From Dehalococcoidia bacterium (GTDB lineage: Bacteria; Chloroflexota; Dehalococcoidia; DSTF01; JACRBR01), in NCBI GenBank assembly GCA_021731085.1, contig JAKFYB010000003.1, forward strand, positions 1 through 64,000: a DNA stretch of 64,000 nucleotides. Direction: 5' to 3'. How positions within the stretch are numbered: position 1 is the first letter of the stretch; each line of letters begins with the position of its first letter. The position numbers and the translations under genes were made by a program. The notes beneath the pieces were generated by a model. That model saw only the letters and a program-made list of their open reading frames with translations. It searched no databases and was not told the origin of the DNA. This document shows positions 481 through 59,456 of the stretch, piece after piece.

Positions 481-1791
481 CTAGCGGCGCGTCGTGACAG
501 CACCGACACCAAGCGCGAACGCTCCCGCGATCAGCGCCATCACGGCGATGGTCGAGTAGCCGACCGCGCCCGATGCGTCGCCACCGCTGCCGGTGTTCGG
601 CGGTGCGATTGGGCCACTCGGAACTGTGGCGGTGGGTGCCGGAGCCGTCGTCGGCTGCGGCGCCACGGTTGGTTCGGGAGCAGGAGCGAGCGGCGGGAGC
701 GCCGAGACGCCCTCGATCTTTACGATCTCGCCCTCGAACACGCCGGGGATCGAGAGGCTGTTGTTGCTGACGTACGCCGTGTCGCCATCGAAGACGATCG
801 CGCCAGCGAAGGTCAGGCCCGTCACCAGCGGCGTCAACTCGCCGTCAGCGGCGACGCTGAAGATGGTTGCTGAGTACGCCTCGAAAGGGCCGCCGCCGCT
901 GAAGTCGATGTCCTGGTCGGCGAAGTTCATCGCGTAGAGCTGGCCGCCGGGGCCGAACTCTACGTCGATCATCGAACTTTCACCGCTTGTGATCTCTGTG
1001 GTCGTGCCACTCGGAATGCCGACGCTGTAGATGGTTCCGTCCTCAGGCGCGAACGGGAACGTGCCGAGGTTGGTGACATACATTGGGCCGGAGTCTTGCG
1101 ACGCAATGCCGGTGGACACGGGGTGGCCGCTGAACTCGGCGACGCGAGAAATGTCGCCATCCGTCTCGATCTTCATAAGCTGGTTCTGGTTGCCGTCCGT
1201 CACATAGAAGTCGCCACCGCGCACGACCATTGCGTACGGGTTGCCGCCGGGCTCGATGTCCGGCTGTACGCCCGAAGTGATGTCCGTTACCGGGTTGTCG
1301 ATGTTGAATTGGCCGATGTCGGCGACGAGCTCAGTGCTCCCGTCGTCATCGATGCGGTAGACGCCTGTGGGTGTGTCCGGGGCGCCGTACGCCTCGCCAC
1401 CATGCGTCTGCACGTAGTACAGCTGGTCACCGATGAAGGCGATATCGGCGGGACCGACGGAGTCCATCGTTGCGGTGCTGAAGTCAGAGTGCAGGCCGTC
1501 CGCAACCGTCGTGCGGTCGCCGGTCTCCGGATCGATCTTCGAAATGCGGCCGCTGTCGCCGACGAGGTGCTCAGCCCCGTCAACGGTGATGCTCGTTGAG
1601 CCGCCCGTGCCGGCTTCCGCGACGTACAGCATGCCGTCCGGTCCCAGCTTGAGGCCGCGCGGGCTCAGGAGGCCAGTGGTAATAGCTACGCCTGAGGTTG
1701 GGCCGGGGGCCTGCGCGCTCACACCCATCGATGCGAGCCCTGCCGCACCAACAGCCAGGGCGGCCAGCCCAAACATGATCTTGAAACGCAT
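481..1791 (-). CDS. ScyD/ScyE-family secreted beta-propeller, C-terminal PPNTG anchor
   Basis: 436 aa. The start at 1791 is chosen because GGAGGAAAG stands 6 nt upstream and it opens directly into a signal peptide ending near SAQA. The mature part has repeated propeller-blade motifs (LKLGPDGMLYVAE, VEFGPGGQLYAMN) and resembles the ScyD/ScyE family, named from cyanobacterial scytonemin clusters but widespread in Chloroflexota with unknown function. A Pro/Thr linker of about 40 residues leads to PPNTGSGG, a hydrophobic helix and a terminal RR, the layout of a sortase-type sorting signal. It is a paralogue of the adjacent upstream gene and exactly the same length. A terminator follows, and a hairpin separates it from the paralogue, so the two are probably separate transcription units. 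Family call fairly certain; role unknown. Confidence 0.88.
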   Translation of the reverse strand: MRFKIMFGLAALAVGAAGLASMGVSAQAPGPTSGVAITTGLLSPRGLKLGPDGMLYVAEAGTGGSTSITVDGAEHLVGDSGRISKIDPETGDRTTVADGLHSDFSTATMDSVGPADIAFIGDQLYYVQTHGGEAYGAPDTPTGVYRIDDDGSTELVADIGQFNIDNPVTDITSGVQPDIEPGGNPYAMVVRGGDFYVTDGNQNQLMKIETDGDISRVAEFSGHPVSTGIASQDSGPMYVTNLGTFPFAPEDGTIYSVGIPSGTTTEITSGESSMIDVEFGPGGQLYAMNFADQDIDFSGGGPFEAYSATIFSVAADGELTPLVTGLTFAGAIVFDGDTAYVSNNSLSIPGVFEGEIVKIEGVSALPPLAPAPEPTVAPQPTTAPAPTATVPSGPIAPPNTGSGGDASGAVGYSTIAVMALIAGAFALGVGAVTTRR

Positions 1792-1844
1792 GTCTTTCCT
1801 CCGTGTTGTCGCAGCCATGGCGGGCTGACGAGTTGCAATTACGC

Positions 1845-1876
1845 GAAGAGAGGATCCACGAGCGGATCCTCTCTTC
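1845..1876 (-). terminator. Perfect 13-bp hairpin between the two ScyD/ScyE genes
   Basis: A 13-bp perfect inverted repeat (1845-1857 and 1864-1876, 6-nt loop) lies 17 nt beyond the stop of the upstream paralogue. The following tract is not T-rich (GCGTAATT), so it may be a weak terminator or an mRNA-stabilising hairpin. Confidence 0.6.
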
Positions 1877-1892
1877 ACTAGAGTGCGAAATG

Positions 1893-3203
1893 TTAGCGCC
1901 GAGCTGCTACAACACCTGCGCCTACTGCTGCGGTTCCTGCGAGCGCGAGCAACAGCACGAGGGCCGCGTACGACTGCGCGCCTGCGCCATCACCCGTACC
2001 GGTGTTCGGCGGTGAGATGGGACCAACGGGAGCCGTTGCCGTCGGCACTGGCGCCGGCGGAGCGACGGTTGGCTCCGGTGCAGGAGCTTCTTCAATCGGC
2101 GTCAGGGCCGACACGCCTTCGACCTGAAGCACATCACCGGTTAGGGAGGTGATGTACGCGGTGTCGCCTGAGAAGTTCACCGAAGTCGGCAGTGTGATGC
2201 CGTTGACGAGGACGTCGAATGTCGCATCAGCGTTCCACCGAAGGAGGCGGCCTGGCGGTGGCGGGCCTGCCTCATCGACCTGCTGGTCGCCCATCTGGAG
2301 CACGTAGACCGCACCGCCGGGACCAAACTCAACGTCGATGAGTTGCGCGTAGACGTTCGAGCCTTCGAGCGGAGTCGTGACGCCCGTCGGGTAGGCGATC
2401 GATGCGACGTAGCTGTCCTCGGCAAAGTGCGGCGCCGGGCTGAACCATGTGTTCAGGATCGGGCCGGGGCCGCCAGCGGCCAAGCCTGTCGGCACGACGT
2501 TGTCGAACGCGGCGAGTTCGTCGATCACGCCGTCTAGCGTCGAGCGAAGGATTCGGTTGTGATTGCCGTCGCTGATGATGAACGAGCCATCGCGGAAGTC
2601 GATTGCGAAGGGGTTGCCGTCAGGACCTGCGTCGTCGAAGGCGACGGGATTGTCGACCGCAAACTGGCGGATGTCGGCGACGAGGGTCCAGGACTCGTCG
2701 TCCTCGAAGCGGTAGACGCCATTGGGCCACGGTACATCGACTCCGGGAGGAGCACCGCCAGTGAGAAGGATGTAGAGCGTGTCGCCAACGAAGATGACGT
2801 CAGCCGGCGCCGCAAACGGTTCGCCGCCTGCCACGTCGGACACCGAAAGCAACCCTGTCGCGTAGTCGGTTACCTCGCCCGTCTCGGGGTCGACGCGAAC
2901 GACCTTGCTGTGCAGACCGACCAGCACCGATTCGATGCCGAACGCTTCGGCGAGTTCCGGGGGGAACGTGACGACTTCGTCGCCCGCCAGGGCAGAGCCG
3001 CCGACGCCGGCGTACAGCGCGCCGTCGGGACCGATCACGGCGCCAGTGGTCGAAACGCCACTCGCGATTGTCGTGCCGGCGCTTGGTCCTTCATACGAGA
3101 TCAGGGTCGGTTCGCCCGGATCTTGCGCGAAGGCTGGCACGACGGCCAGCGCGACGGCTGCTAGTGCGGCAGCCGCTGCCGCTCCAATTCGTCTTCGATT
3201 CAT
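1893..3203 (-). CDS. ScyD/ScyE-family secreted beta-propeller, C-terminal PPNTG anchor (paralogue)
   Basis: 436 aa. The start at 3203 has GGAGG 8 nt upstream and an immediate signal peptide (MNRRRIG, then an Ala-rich core, cut near AFA-QDPG). Blade motifs recur (AVIGPDGALYAGV, VEFGPGGAVYVLQ, FIISDGNHNRI). The C-terminus is a Pro/Ala/Thr linker, ISPPNTGTG, a hydrophobic helix and RR. It is clearly homologous along its length to the gene at 481-1791, so this is a tandem duplication that has diverged substantially. Likely exported and held at the cell surface. ScyD/ScyE proteins have no established biochemical activity outside scytonemin-linked hypotheses, so the substrate is unknown. Confidence 0.88.
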   Translation of the reverse strand: MNRRRIGAAAAAALAAVALAVVPAFAQDPGEPTLISYEGPSAGTTIASGVSTTGAVIGPDGALYAGVGGSALAGDEVVTFPPELAEAFGIESVLVGLHSKVVRVDPETGEVTDYATGLLSVSDVAGGEPFAAPADVIFVGDTLYILLTGGAPPGVDVPWPNGVYRFEDDESWTLVADIRQFAVDNPVAFDDAGPDGNPFAIDFRDGSFIISDGNHNRILRSTLDGVIDELAAFDNVVPTGLAAGGPGPILNTWFSPAPHFAEDSYVASIAYPTGVTTPLEGSNVYAQLIDVEFGPGGAVYVLQMGDQQVDEAGPPPPGRLLRWNADATFDVLVNGITLPTSVNFSGDTAYITSLTGDVLQVEGVSALTPIEEAPAPEPTVAPPAPVPTATAPVGPISPPNTGTGDGAGAQSYAALVLLLALAGTAAVGAGVVAARR

Positions 3204-57758: not shown

Positions 57759-59456
57759 ATGCTAAAGCTCGCTATCGCTCTACTGGTATTGAGTGCCGCC
57801 GCTATCGGATCTGGCGCGATCGCGACGACAACGCCCGTCGAAGCCGGAAGCAACATCCTCTGGAGGGACTGCTATGAGGGCTACGAGTGCGGCGAACTGC
57901 GCGTGCCACTCGACTACAAGCGCCCGCGCGAGGAACAGATTGACATCGCACTGATCAAGGTGCCCGCTCTCGTCCCCGAAGAGCGCATCGGCTCATTGCT
58001 CGTGAACTTCGGCGGCCCCGGCGGTCCGGGCGTCGAGATCGTGCTCAACTCGGCATCATTCTTCCCGCAGGAATATCAGGACCGCTTCGACATCATCGGT
58101 TTCGACCCGCGCGGTGTAGGCATCAGCGACGATGTGGACTGCGTCGACAACTTCAACGACTTCCCAGAACTCGACAGCACGCCGGGTACGCGCTCGTACG
58201 ACCAGCAGGTCACGTTCTGGCGTGACTTCGCACGTGACTGCCAGCGGCGCAGCGGCAAGCTGTTGCAGTTCGTGGACACGAACAGCGCCGCTCGTGACAT
58301 GGACCGCATCCGCGAAGAACTCGGCGACGAGAAGATGACGTACCTCGGCTTCTCGTACGGCTCGTTACTCGGGCAGGCCTACGCCGATCTCTTCCCGGAA
58401 CGCGTCCGAGCGCTGGTCATCGACGGCATCCTCGATCCAGCAAACACGACGCACGAGATGCTCGTCGAGACAGGGGTCGGCGCCGATATCGCACTCCAGG
58501 GCTTCCTCGACGAATGCGCCGCGAGCGAAACGTGCGCGTTCAAGGCACCGGACCTCGCCGCCGCATTCGACGAAGTGATCGCCGCCGCCGAAGAGGAGCC
58601 GCTGCTGGGTTGGGACTTTCCCATCACTGCCGACATCATCCTTCAAGCAACGTTCGGCGCGATGTACGACCACACAACGTGGATCGGGCTCGCGGAAGCG
58701 CTGCGCCAGGCGTATGAAGAACGCTCTGGCGTGGGCTTCGGCGTCTTCGTTTCCGGAATCGGGGAACCACCGGACGACGACATCGACTACACCAACGGCT
58801 TCGAGGCGTTCTCATCCATCTCCTGCGTTGACTTTCTGTCGATCGATGGCGAACCCGAGTTCAAGCGCATCCTCGCGGACGCATCCGCCGCCTCACCGCG
58901 CTTCGGCGCCTACGTGACCTACGCTTATGGCCTCCCATGCGCGTTCTGGCCCGGCGCTCCACGACGGCCTGCGGCGCCCGTCGTCGCCGAAGGCTCCGCG
59001 CCCATCCTCGTCGTTAGCTCGAAGTACGACCCGATCACCCGCTACGACTTCGGTGTTGCCGTCGCGAACCAGCTCGAATCCTCAGCGCTCCTCTCTAGCG
59101 AGAGCTACGGCCACACGTCGCACGGTGTCTGCGCCAACGCCTACACCGTTGCCTATCTCGTCGACCTGGCGCTGCCGCCGACCGGCGCGACGTGCGCGAA
59201 CGAGGACGAGCCCTTCCCCGTCGTTGAGGACGTTGCCCCGAAACCGGAACTTCCCGCCTCGGAAGCTCCGATCCCACCACCCATCGCGCCGACTCCGGCG
59301 ACCCCCACCGGCGGCATCACGGCACCAGACACCGGAAGCGATGGCGCACAGGCTGCTGGCCGACCCGGGTTCGGCGTGCTGGCGATGCTCGTCGTGGGAG
59401 CCACTGCGCTGGCTGTGCCCGGCCGCTTCGTCGGGATCCAGCGATCGCGCCTGTAG
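57759..59456 (+). CDS. Secreted TAP-like alpha/beta hydrolase (S33-type) with C-terminal APDTG anchor
   Basis: 565 aa. Signal peptide about 1-29. The alpha/beta hydrolase core has NFGGPGGPG (oxyanion hole, about 83-91), FDPRGVGIS, nucleophile Ser199 in GFSYGS, a late Asp in SSKYDPITR, and His in GHTSHGVC: a complete triad of the tripeptidyl-aminopeptidase/SLPD family. After residue about 500, a Pro/Thr linker leads to ITAPDTGSDG, a TM helix (FGVLAMLVVGATALAV) and a basic tail, as in the two PPNTG proteins at the start of the window. Likely a surface peptidase or esterase. Confidence 0.92.
   Translation: MLKLAIALLVLSAAAIGSGAIATTTPVEAGSNILWRDCYEGYECGELRVPLDYKRPREEQIDIALIKVPALVPEERIGSLLVNFGGPGGPGVEIVLNSASFFPQEYQDRFDIIGFDPRGVGISDDVDCVDNFNDFPELDSTPGTRSYDQQVTFWRDFARDCQRRSGKLLQFVDTNSAARDMDRIREELGDEKMTYLGFSYGSLLGQAYADLFPERVRALVIDGILDPANTTHEMLVETGVGADIALQGFLDECAASETCAFKAPDLAAAFDEVIAAAEEEPLLGWDFPITADIILQATFGAMYDHTTWIGLAEALRQAYEERSGVGFGVFVSGIGEPPDDDIDYTNGFEAFSSISCVDFLSIDGEPEFKRILADASAASPRFGAYVTYAYGLPCAFWPGAPRRPAAPVVAEGSAPILVVSSKYDPITRYDFGVAVANQLESSALLSSESYGHTSHGVCANAYTVAYLVDLALPPTGATCANEDEPFPVVEDVAPKPELPASEAPIPPPIAPTPATPTGGITAPDTGSDGAQAAGRPGFGVLAMLVVGATALAVPGRFVGIQRSRL

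Follow-up and report, generated by a model that had tools for sequence, protein, structure and literature searches.

The specificity of a sortase is as a rule given as a pentapeptide, and the hydrophobic contact made by that peptide normally comes from its leucine. Numbered from the scissile T-G bond, with the threonine as P1, this first motif residue is P4 and the residue two before the motif is P6. Class B sortases are known to recognise PPxTG: SrtB of Clostridioides difficile cleaves SPKTG, PPKTG, SPSTG and SPQTG between T and G (PMC4155245). The sorting signals of the classes have been summarised as (N/S/P)PXTG for class B and LPXTG for class F (Cutibacterium acnes), with LAXTG for the class E enzymes of Streptomyces (PMC13257024). 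Bacillus anthracis SrtB needs residues beyond the pentapeptide, namely Asp at P5 and Asp at P2' (PMC11987632). In Actinoplanes, joint deletion of four class F sortases gave no phenotype (PMC13251363).

The window analysed here is a stretch of 64,000 nucleotides (C5:1-64000) from a metagenome-assembled genome of the Chloroflexota class Dehalococcoidia (3.58 Mb, 52 contigs; the host). It encodes three proteins with tails of the sorting-signal type (Table 1), and in all three a signal peptide can be recognised by eye at the N-terminus. The tails read PPNTGSGGDASGAVGYSTIAVMALIAGAFALGVGAVTTRR in ScyD/ScyE-family protein 1, PPNTGTGDGAGAQSYAALVLLLALAGTAAVGAGVVAARR in ScyD/ScyE-family protein 2 and APDTGSDGAQAAGRPGFGVLAMLVVGATALAVPGRFVGIQRSRL in the TAP-like hydrolase. 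Their order is the same throughout: a Pro/Thr linker, [PA]P[ND]TG, a Gly/Ser spacer, a hydrophobic segment and a basic end. The two ScyD/ScyE-family tails have PPNTG, a Gly-rich spacer, the hydrophobic segment and RR, and the APDTG tail of the hydrolase, the third in the window, lacks the Gly at +2. The first ATG of the second ScyD/ScyE-family ORF is at 3203, and a form starting at TTG extends to 3263. In all three proteins xPxTG lies in the last 50 or so residues, ahead of a hydrophobic segment and a basic C-terminus, as in a sorting signal, but the Leu of a canonical LPXTG signal is replaced by P, P and A. The first-pass annotation had described the tails as PPNTG-TM-RR and APDTG-TM-basic behind a Pro/Thr linker, a description that the ORFs and domain matches confirm; its comparison with the layout of a sortase signal is borne out as well.

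Table 1. Tail-bearing proteins of the window and their sorting-signal features (NF033206, NCBIfam ScyD/ScyE model, cut-off 80 bits)
Feature	Position	Strand	Domain match
ScyD/ScyE-family secreted protein 1, Pro/Thr linker and C-terminal sorting signal	481..1878	-	NF033206, 191 bits
Likely ATG start, protein 1	1791	-	
PPNTG motif, protein 1	589..603	-	
Ile codon at -2 (P6) of extended signal I-A-PPNTG, protein 1	607..609	-	
ScyD/ScyE-family secreted protein 2, C-terminal sorting signal	1893..3203	-	NF033206, 101 bits
PPNTG motif, protein 2	1998..2012	-	
Ile codon at -2 (P6) of I-S-PPNTG, protein 2	2016..2018	-	
TAP-like alpha/beta hydrolase, C-terminal sorting signal	57759..59456	+	PF00561, E=5e-20; PF08386 (Pfam TAP-like C-terminal domain), E=1e-17
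APDTG motif, hydrolase	59322..59336	+	
Ile codon at -2 (P6) of I-T-APDTG, hydrolase (GGIT-APDTG)	59316..59318	+	

A 14-base DNA pattern for [PA]P[ND]TG has 33 matches in the whole host assembly, against 15 for a reversed control. Most of these raw matches are not tails, and seven belong to secreted proteins that have a complete C-terminal tail. The pattern extended by the +2 Gly ([PA]P[ND]TGxG) has 47 matches in the host family and 5 in the control. Since the counts exceed those of the reversed control, the tails of the window are not due to chance, and the motif is not scattered randomly among cytosolic proteins. The Pfam anchor model Gram_pos_anchor (PF00746) has no host match above its cut-off and is therefore unusable for listing these tails. 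A tail profile combined with reading of the sequences gave about 20 host proteins with signal peptides and tails of the [LPA]PxTG type. Tails were classified throughout by a simple hydrophobicity rule, and those of the host include 8 LPxTG, 7 PPxTG and 2 APxTG tails. The P/A tails are PPNTG (four times), PPDTG, PPSTG (twice), APDTG and APNTG; the LPxTG tails are LPHTG, LPETG, LPDTG, LPSTG (twice), LPNTG, LPVTG and LPATG, and there are looser forms (LPNAG, LPNSG, LPDAG and LPEAG). By eye, a signal peptide is present in nearly all host tail proteins and in every one with an intact N-terminus. The first-pass annotation had listed P/A tails on secreted proteins, which were indeed found, but overlooked the canonical class. 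Its suggestion of a sortase of atypical specificity holds as a good inference for an enzyme of broadened or altered specificity; because LPxTG tails are equally common in the host genome, P/A is no genome-wide substitute for L, and a complete replacement of LPxTG by the P/A motif was dropped as an explanation.

Several host loci deserve separate mention. On contig C16 (L072:3696-5695), three consecutive small Pro/Thr-rich secreted proteins of 161, 168 and 174 aa all have sorting tails (PPSTG, PPSTG and PPNTG), and the first two resemble recent duplicates. Contig C17 (L023:625-1530) encodes a secreted protein with an I-x-PPDTG signal that stops after PPDTGSGGYR, five residues past PPDTG, and has no TM; it is either a truncated anchor or a frameshift. 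On the minus strand of contig C22 (L027), a secreted protein has AIVPPDTG about 79 residues from its end and a TM only later, and this distance is too great for a normal sorting signal.

The P/A tails share a residue outside the pentapeptide. Among the tails collected with the profile, I, V or L stands exactly two residues upstream of the motif in 55 of 59 P/A/G tails, and at other upstream positions in about 10%. As the profile had been seeded with tails having I/V at -2, the statistic was redone with DNA searches for the motif only. In 18 related genomes, all 44 tails matching [PA]P[ND]TGxG have I or V at -2, against a background of about 11% at the neighbouring positions; three further such tails from G038, a genome outside the 18, were left out of this count. 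The LP[ND]TGxG tails found in the same way have I, V or L at -2 in 6 of 20 cases, no different from the positions beside it. The difference between the two classes is significant (Fisher p=8e-10), a value that overstates independence because the genomes are related by descent; many of the assemblies are also fragmented. When the P4 codon is left free, [IV]xxP[ND]TGxG has 61 matches in the family and a single one in the reversed control, with A (30), P (15), G (9), L (4), S (1), E (1) and T (1) at P4. Both Ile and Val occur at P6, each specified by several codons, so the pattern is kept at the protein level. A few exceptions have neither Leu at P4 nor I/V at P6 (in G005, G008, G013 and G049). 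The P/A class is distinguished by a near-obligatory I/V two residues upstream, in addition to P, A or G at its first position.

The host family thus appears to use two anchor tags, LPxTG and a variant with Ile or Val two residues before the non-Leu position. We consider it probable that the three tails of the window are sortase signals of this second class, [IV]-x-[PAG]-P-[ND]-T-G-[ST]-G, which would operate alongside canonical LPxTG in the same genomes. The variant tag points to anchoring enzymes whose recognition sequence exceeds the usual length, and its most economical reading is that [IV]-x-[PAG]-P-[ND]-T-G would be the signal for at least one of the class F-like sortases. The closest known systems each differ from it. 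Among the substrates of C. difficile SrtB, too, are signals that start with P where L would be canonical, PPKTG included, but that enzyme belongs to class B, appears not to cleave LPXTG and does not use APxTG or GPxTG; a hydrophobic residue at -2 is inconsistent among its substrates, being present in 3 of the 7 (S/P)PXTG sequences listed. B. anthracis SrtB offers a precedent for a non-Leu P4 together with a need for outside residues, although it too is of class B and makes polar contacts at P5 and P2', whereas the host lineage has a hydrophobic residue at P6. Outside the Firmicutes, class E is known to depart from the LPXTG consensus; in that class the second residue is altered, whereas Pro at that position is invariant in the host lineage. 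Class F (C. acnes SrtF, Actinoplanes SrtF1-4) is the nearest NCBIfam class of all host-lineage paralogs, but these score under the family cut-off, and LPXTG is the reported signal of the C. acnes enzyme (PMC13257024). What differs from the known systems is the sortase class, the occurrence of A and G besides P at the first position, the coexistence with LPxTG and the near-invariant hydrophobic P6. In the open-access literature searched, we found no paper naming PPNTG, PPDTG, APNTG or APDTG with a sortase, no description of sortase substrates in Dehalococcoidia and no substrate work for this sortase class and phylum.

The host genome does encode sortases. A search with PF04203 revealed two adjacent genes (C21:83-514 and 915-1337) scoring 83.7 and 67.4 bits (cut-off 26.6). 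The pair sits at a contig edge, with C21 starting inside the first gene. Six of the 7 other family members have three sortases in tandem, and in the exception, G005, two lie at one place and the third elsewhere; from these triplets it follows that a third host sortase is probably hidden in an assembly gap. In relatives, gyrA adjoins the triplet wherever the layout was read. The His, the Cys of TLITC/TLVTC and the Arg are conserved across the sortases: H128, C195 (TLITC) and R209 are invariant in 12 gamma sequences and also kept in the alpha and beta paralogs. Compared with the sortase classes of NCBIfam, the alpha, beta and gamma paralogs all score highest with class F (NF033748), at 115 bits (gamma) and 52 bits (beta, truncated) in the host and 50-122 bits in relatives; as these scores lie under the curated cut-off of 166 bits, class F membership is loose. 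No class B model is among the NCBIfam matches of any paralog. An AlphaFold2 model of a gamma sortase from the same genus (pLDDT 79) has a sortase fold and matches PDB sortases of classes A, C, D and E (E ~1e-9 to 1e-8). In trees, the gamma group is separate from an alpha+beta clade (support 100/98). Gamma sortases are present in nearly all tail-bearing genomes.

The paralogs may differ in what they read. Gamma could be the housekeeping sortase for LPxTG and the alpha/beta clade the reader of the [IV]x[PAG]P[ND]TG class, a division of labour that we regard as a serious possibility, if not the expected one. The well-supported alpha/beta clade occurs here only in families f1, f2, f3 and f5, the ratio of P/A/G to L tails is 53:26 in f1-f3 versus 7:17 elsewhere (p=0.0017, kinship ignored), and the substrate genes adjoining the sortase triplet are mostly of the P/G class. 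Such a division is hard to reconcile with the P/A/G tails of G015 and G038, where no alpha/beta sortase was found, with the f5 genomes that have alpha/beta-clade sortases and no tail match, and with LPDTG substrates that also adjoin the triplet (G001, G002). Because of the tails in G015 and G038, no paralog is pinned to the P/A/G class, and the idea that alpha/beta sortases are required for it is weakened. It is rather unlikely that one relaxed sortase reads xPxTG only, through a tolerant P4 pocket, with the upstream I/V stemming from secondary structure or from linker descent. The contrast at -2 between P/A and LP[ND]TG tails of the same genomes speaks against it, as do the several codons for Ile and Val, hence not simple copying, and the near absence at P4 of Ser and Thr, which are common in linkers; these points weigh more with us than the co-occurrence of L, P, A and G tails in single genomes and the presence of the gamma clade in nearly all tail genomes, G015 and G038 included. 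A reading of the tails as mere C-terminal membrane anchors, with a motif due to chance or linker composition, is highly improbable. The Pro/Thr/Ala/Gly-rich linkers do raise the odds of xPxTG-like strings and the majority of raw host matches are non-tails, but the motif sits at a constant distance of about 35-45 residues from the C-terminus, exceeds the reversed control by 61:1, obeys the -2 rule and is linked to sortase genes, and sortase-negative relatives have no tail match at all.

Under the preferred reading, a second sorting signal beside LPxTG, the three proteins would be exported by the Sec system and held in the membrane by the C-terminal TM. A class F-like sortase of the tandem cluster would cut between T and G and join the cut protein to a precursor of peptidoglycan. 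Ile/Val at P6 may, in the second class, replace or supplement the hydrophobic contact of Leu at P4, where a small P, A or G is found. A stronger form, in which the lineage evolved [IV]-x-[PAG]-P-[ND]-T-G as a longer code with its own duplicated class F-like sortases, equipped with a pocket for P6, and runs this code in parallel with LPxTG and independently of it (orthogonally) within one cell, is put forward only tentatively and seems to us somewhat doubtful.

The tails follow the sortases. With the profile (E<=1e-3), 20 of the 41 relatives that have a sortase showed tail matches, and none of the 19 that lack one did (p=8e-5, kinship ignored). Some Dehalococcoidia lack peptidoglycan, and the gene mraY is a marker of lipid II synthesis. 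It was found (>150 bits) in 34/41 sortase-positive versus 1/19 sortase-negative genomes, and in the host at C3:202895. An absence of peptidoglycan in the host family is therefore not supported, and the presence of mraY makes peptidoglycan a plausible acceptor. Four genomes of the same class (G023, G045, G051 and G054) have a PF04203 sortase and no mraY match; they could be incomplete assemblies, or their sortases could use an acceptor other than peptidoglycan.

In the natural sequences of 18 genomes, a residue outside the pentapeptide, P6, is fixed where P4 is not Leu. If the second signal is confirmed, annotation by LPXTG only would miss about half of the wall-anchored proteins in these bacteria, the enzymes could supply sortases orthogonal to LPXTG ligation, and paired natural peptides would make the choice of substrate by sortases testable.

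Directly next to the sortase cluster, relatives encode tail proteins that have Ig-like/invasin-type domains. At L162:7348-12160 and L159:152-6715, two to four tail-bearing proteins, some of them with such domains, are followed by the sortase triplet and then gyrA, an arrangement that is a conserved surface-protein locus of the relatives. Some alpha sortases (L159:6968-7798, L164) begin with a hydrophobic stretch ending in Cys (GAAAC-GGG, LSGAC-GGG), which looks like a lipoprotein signal rather than a TM anchor.
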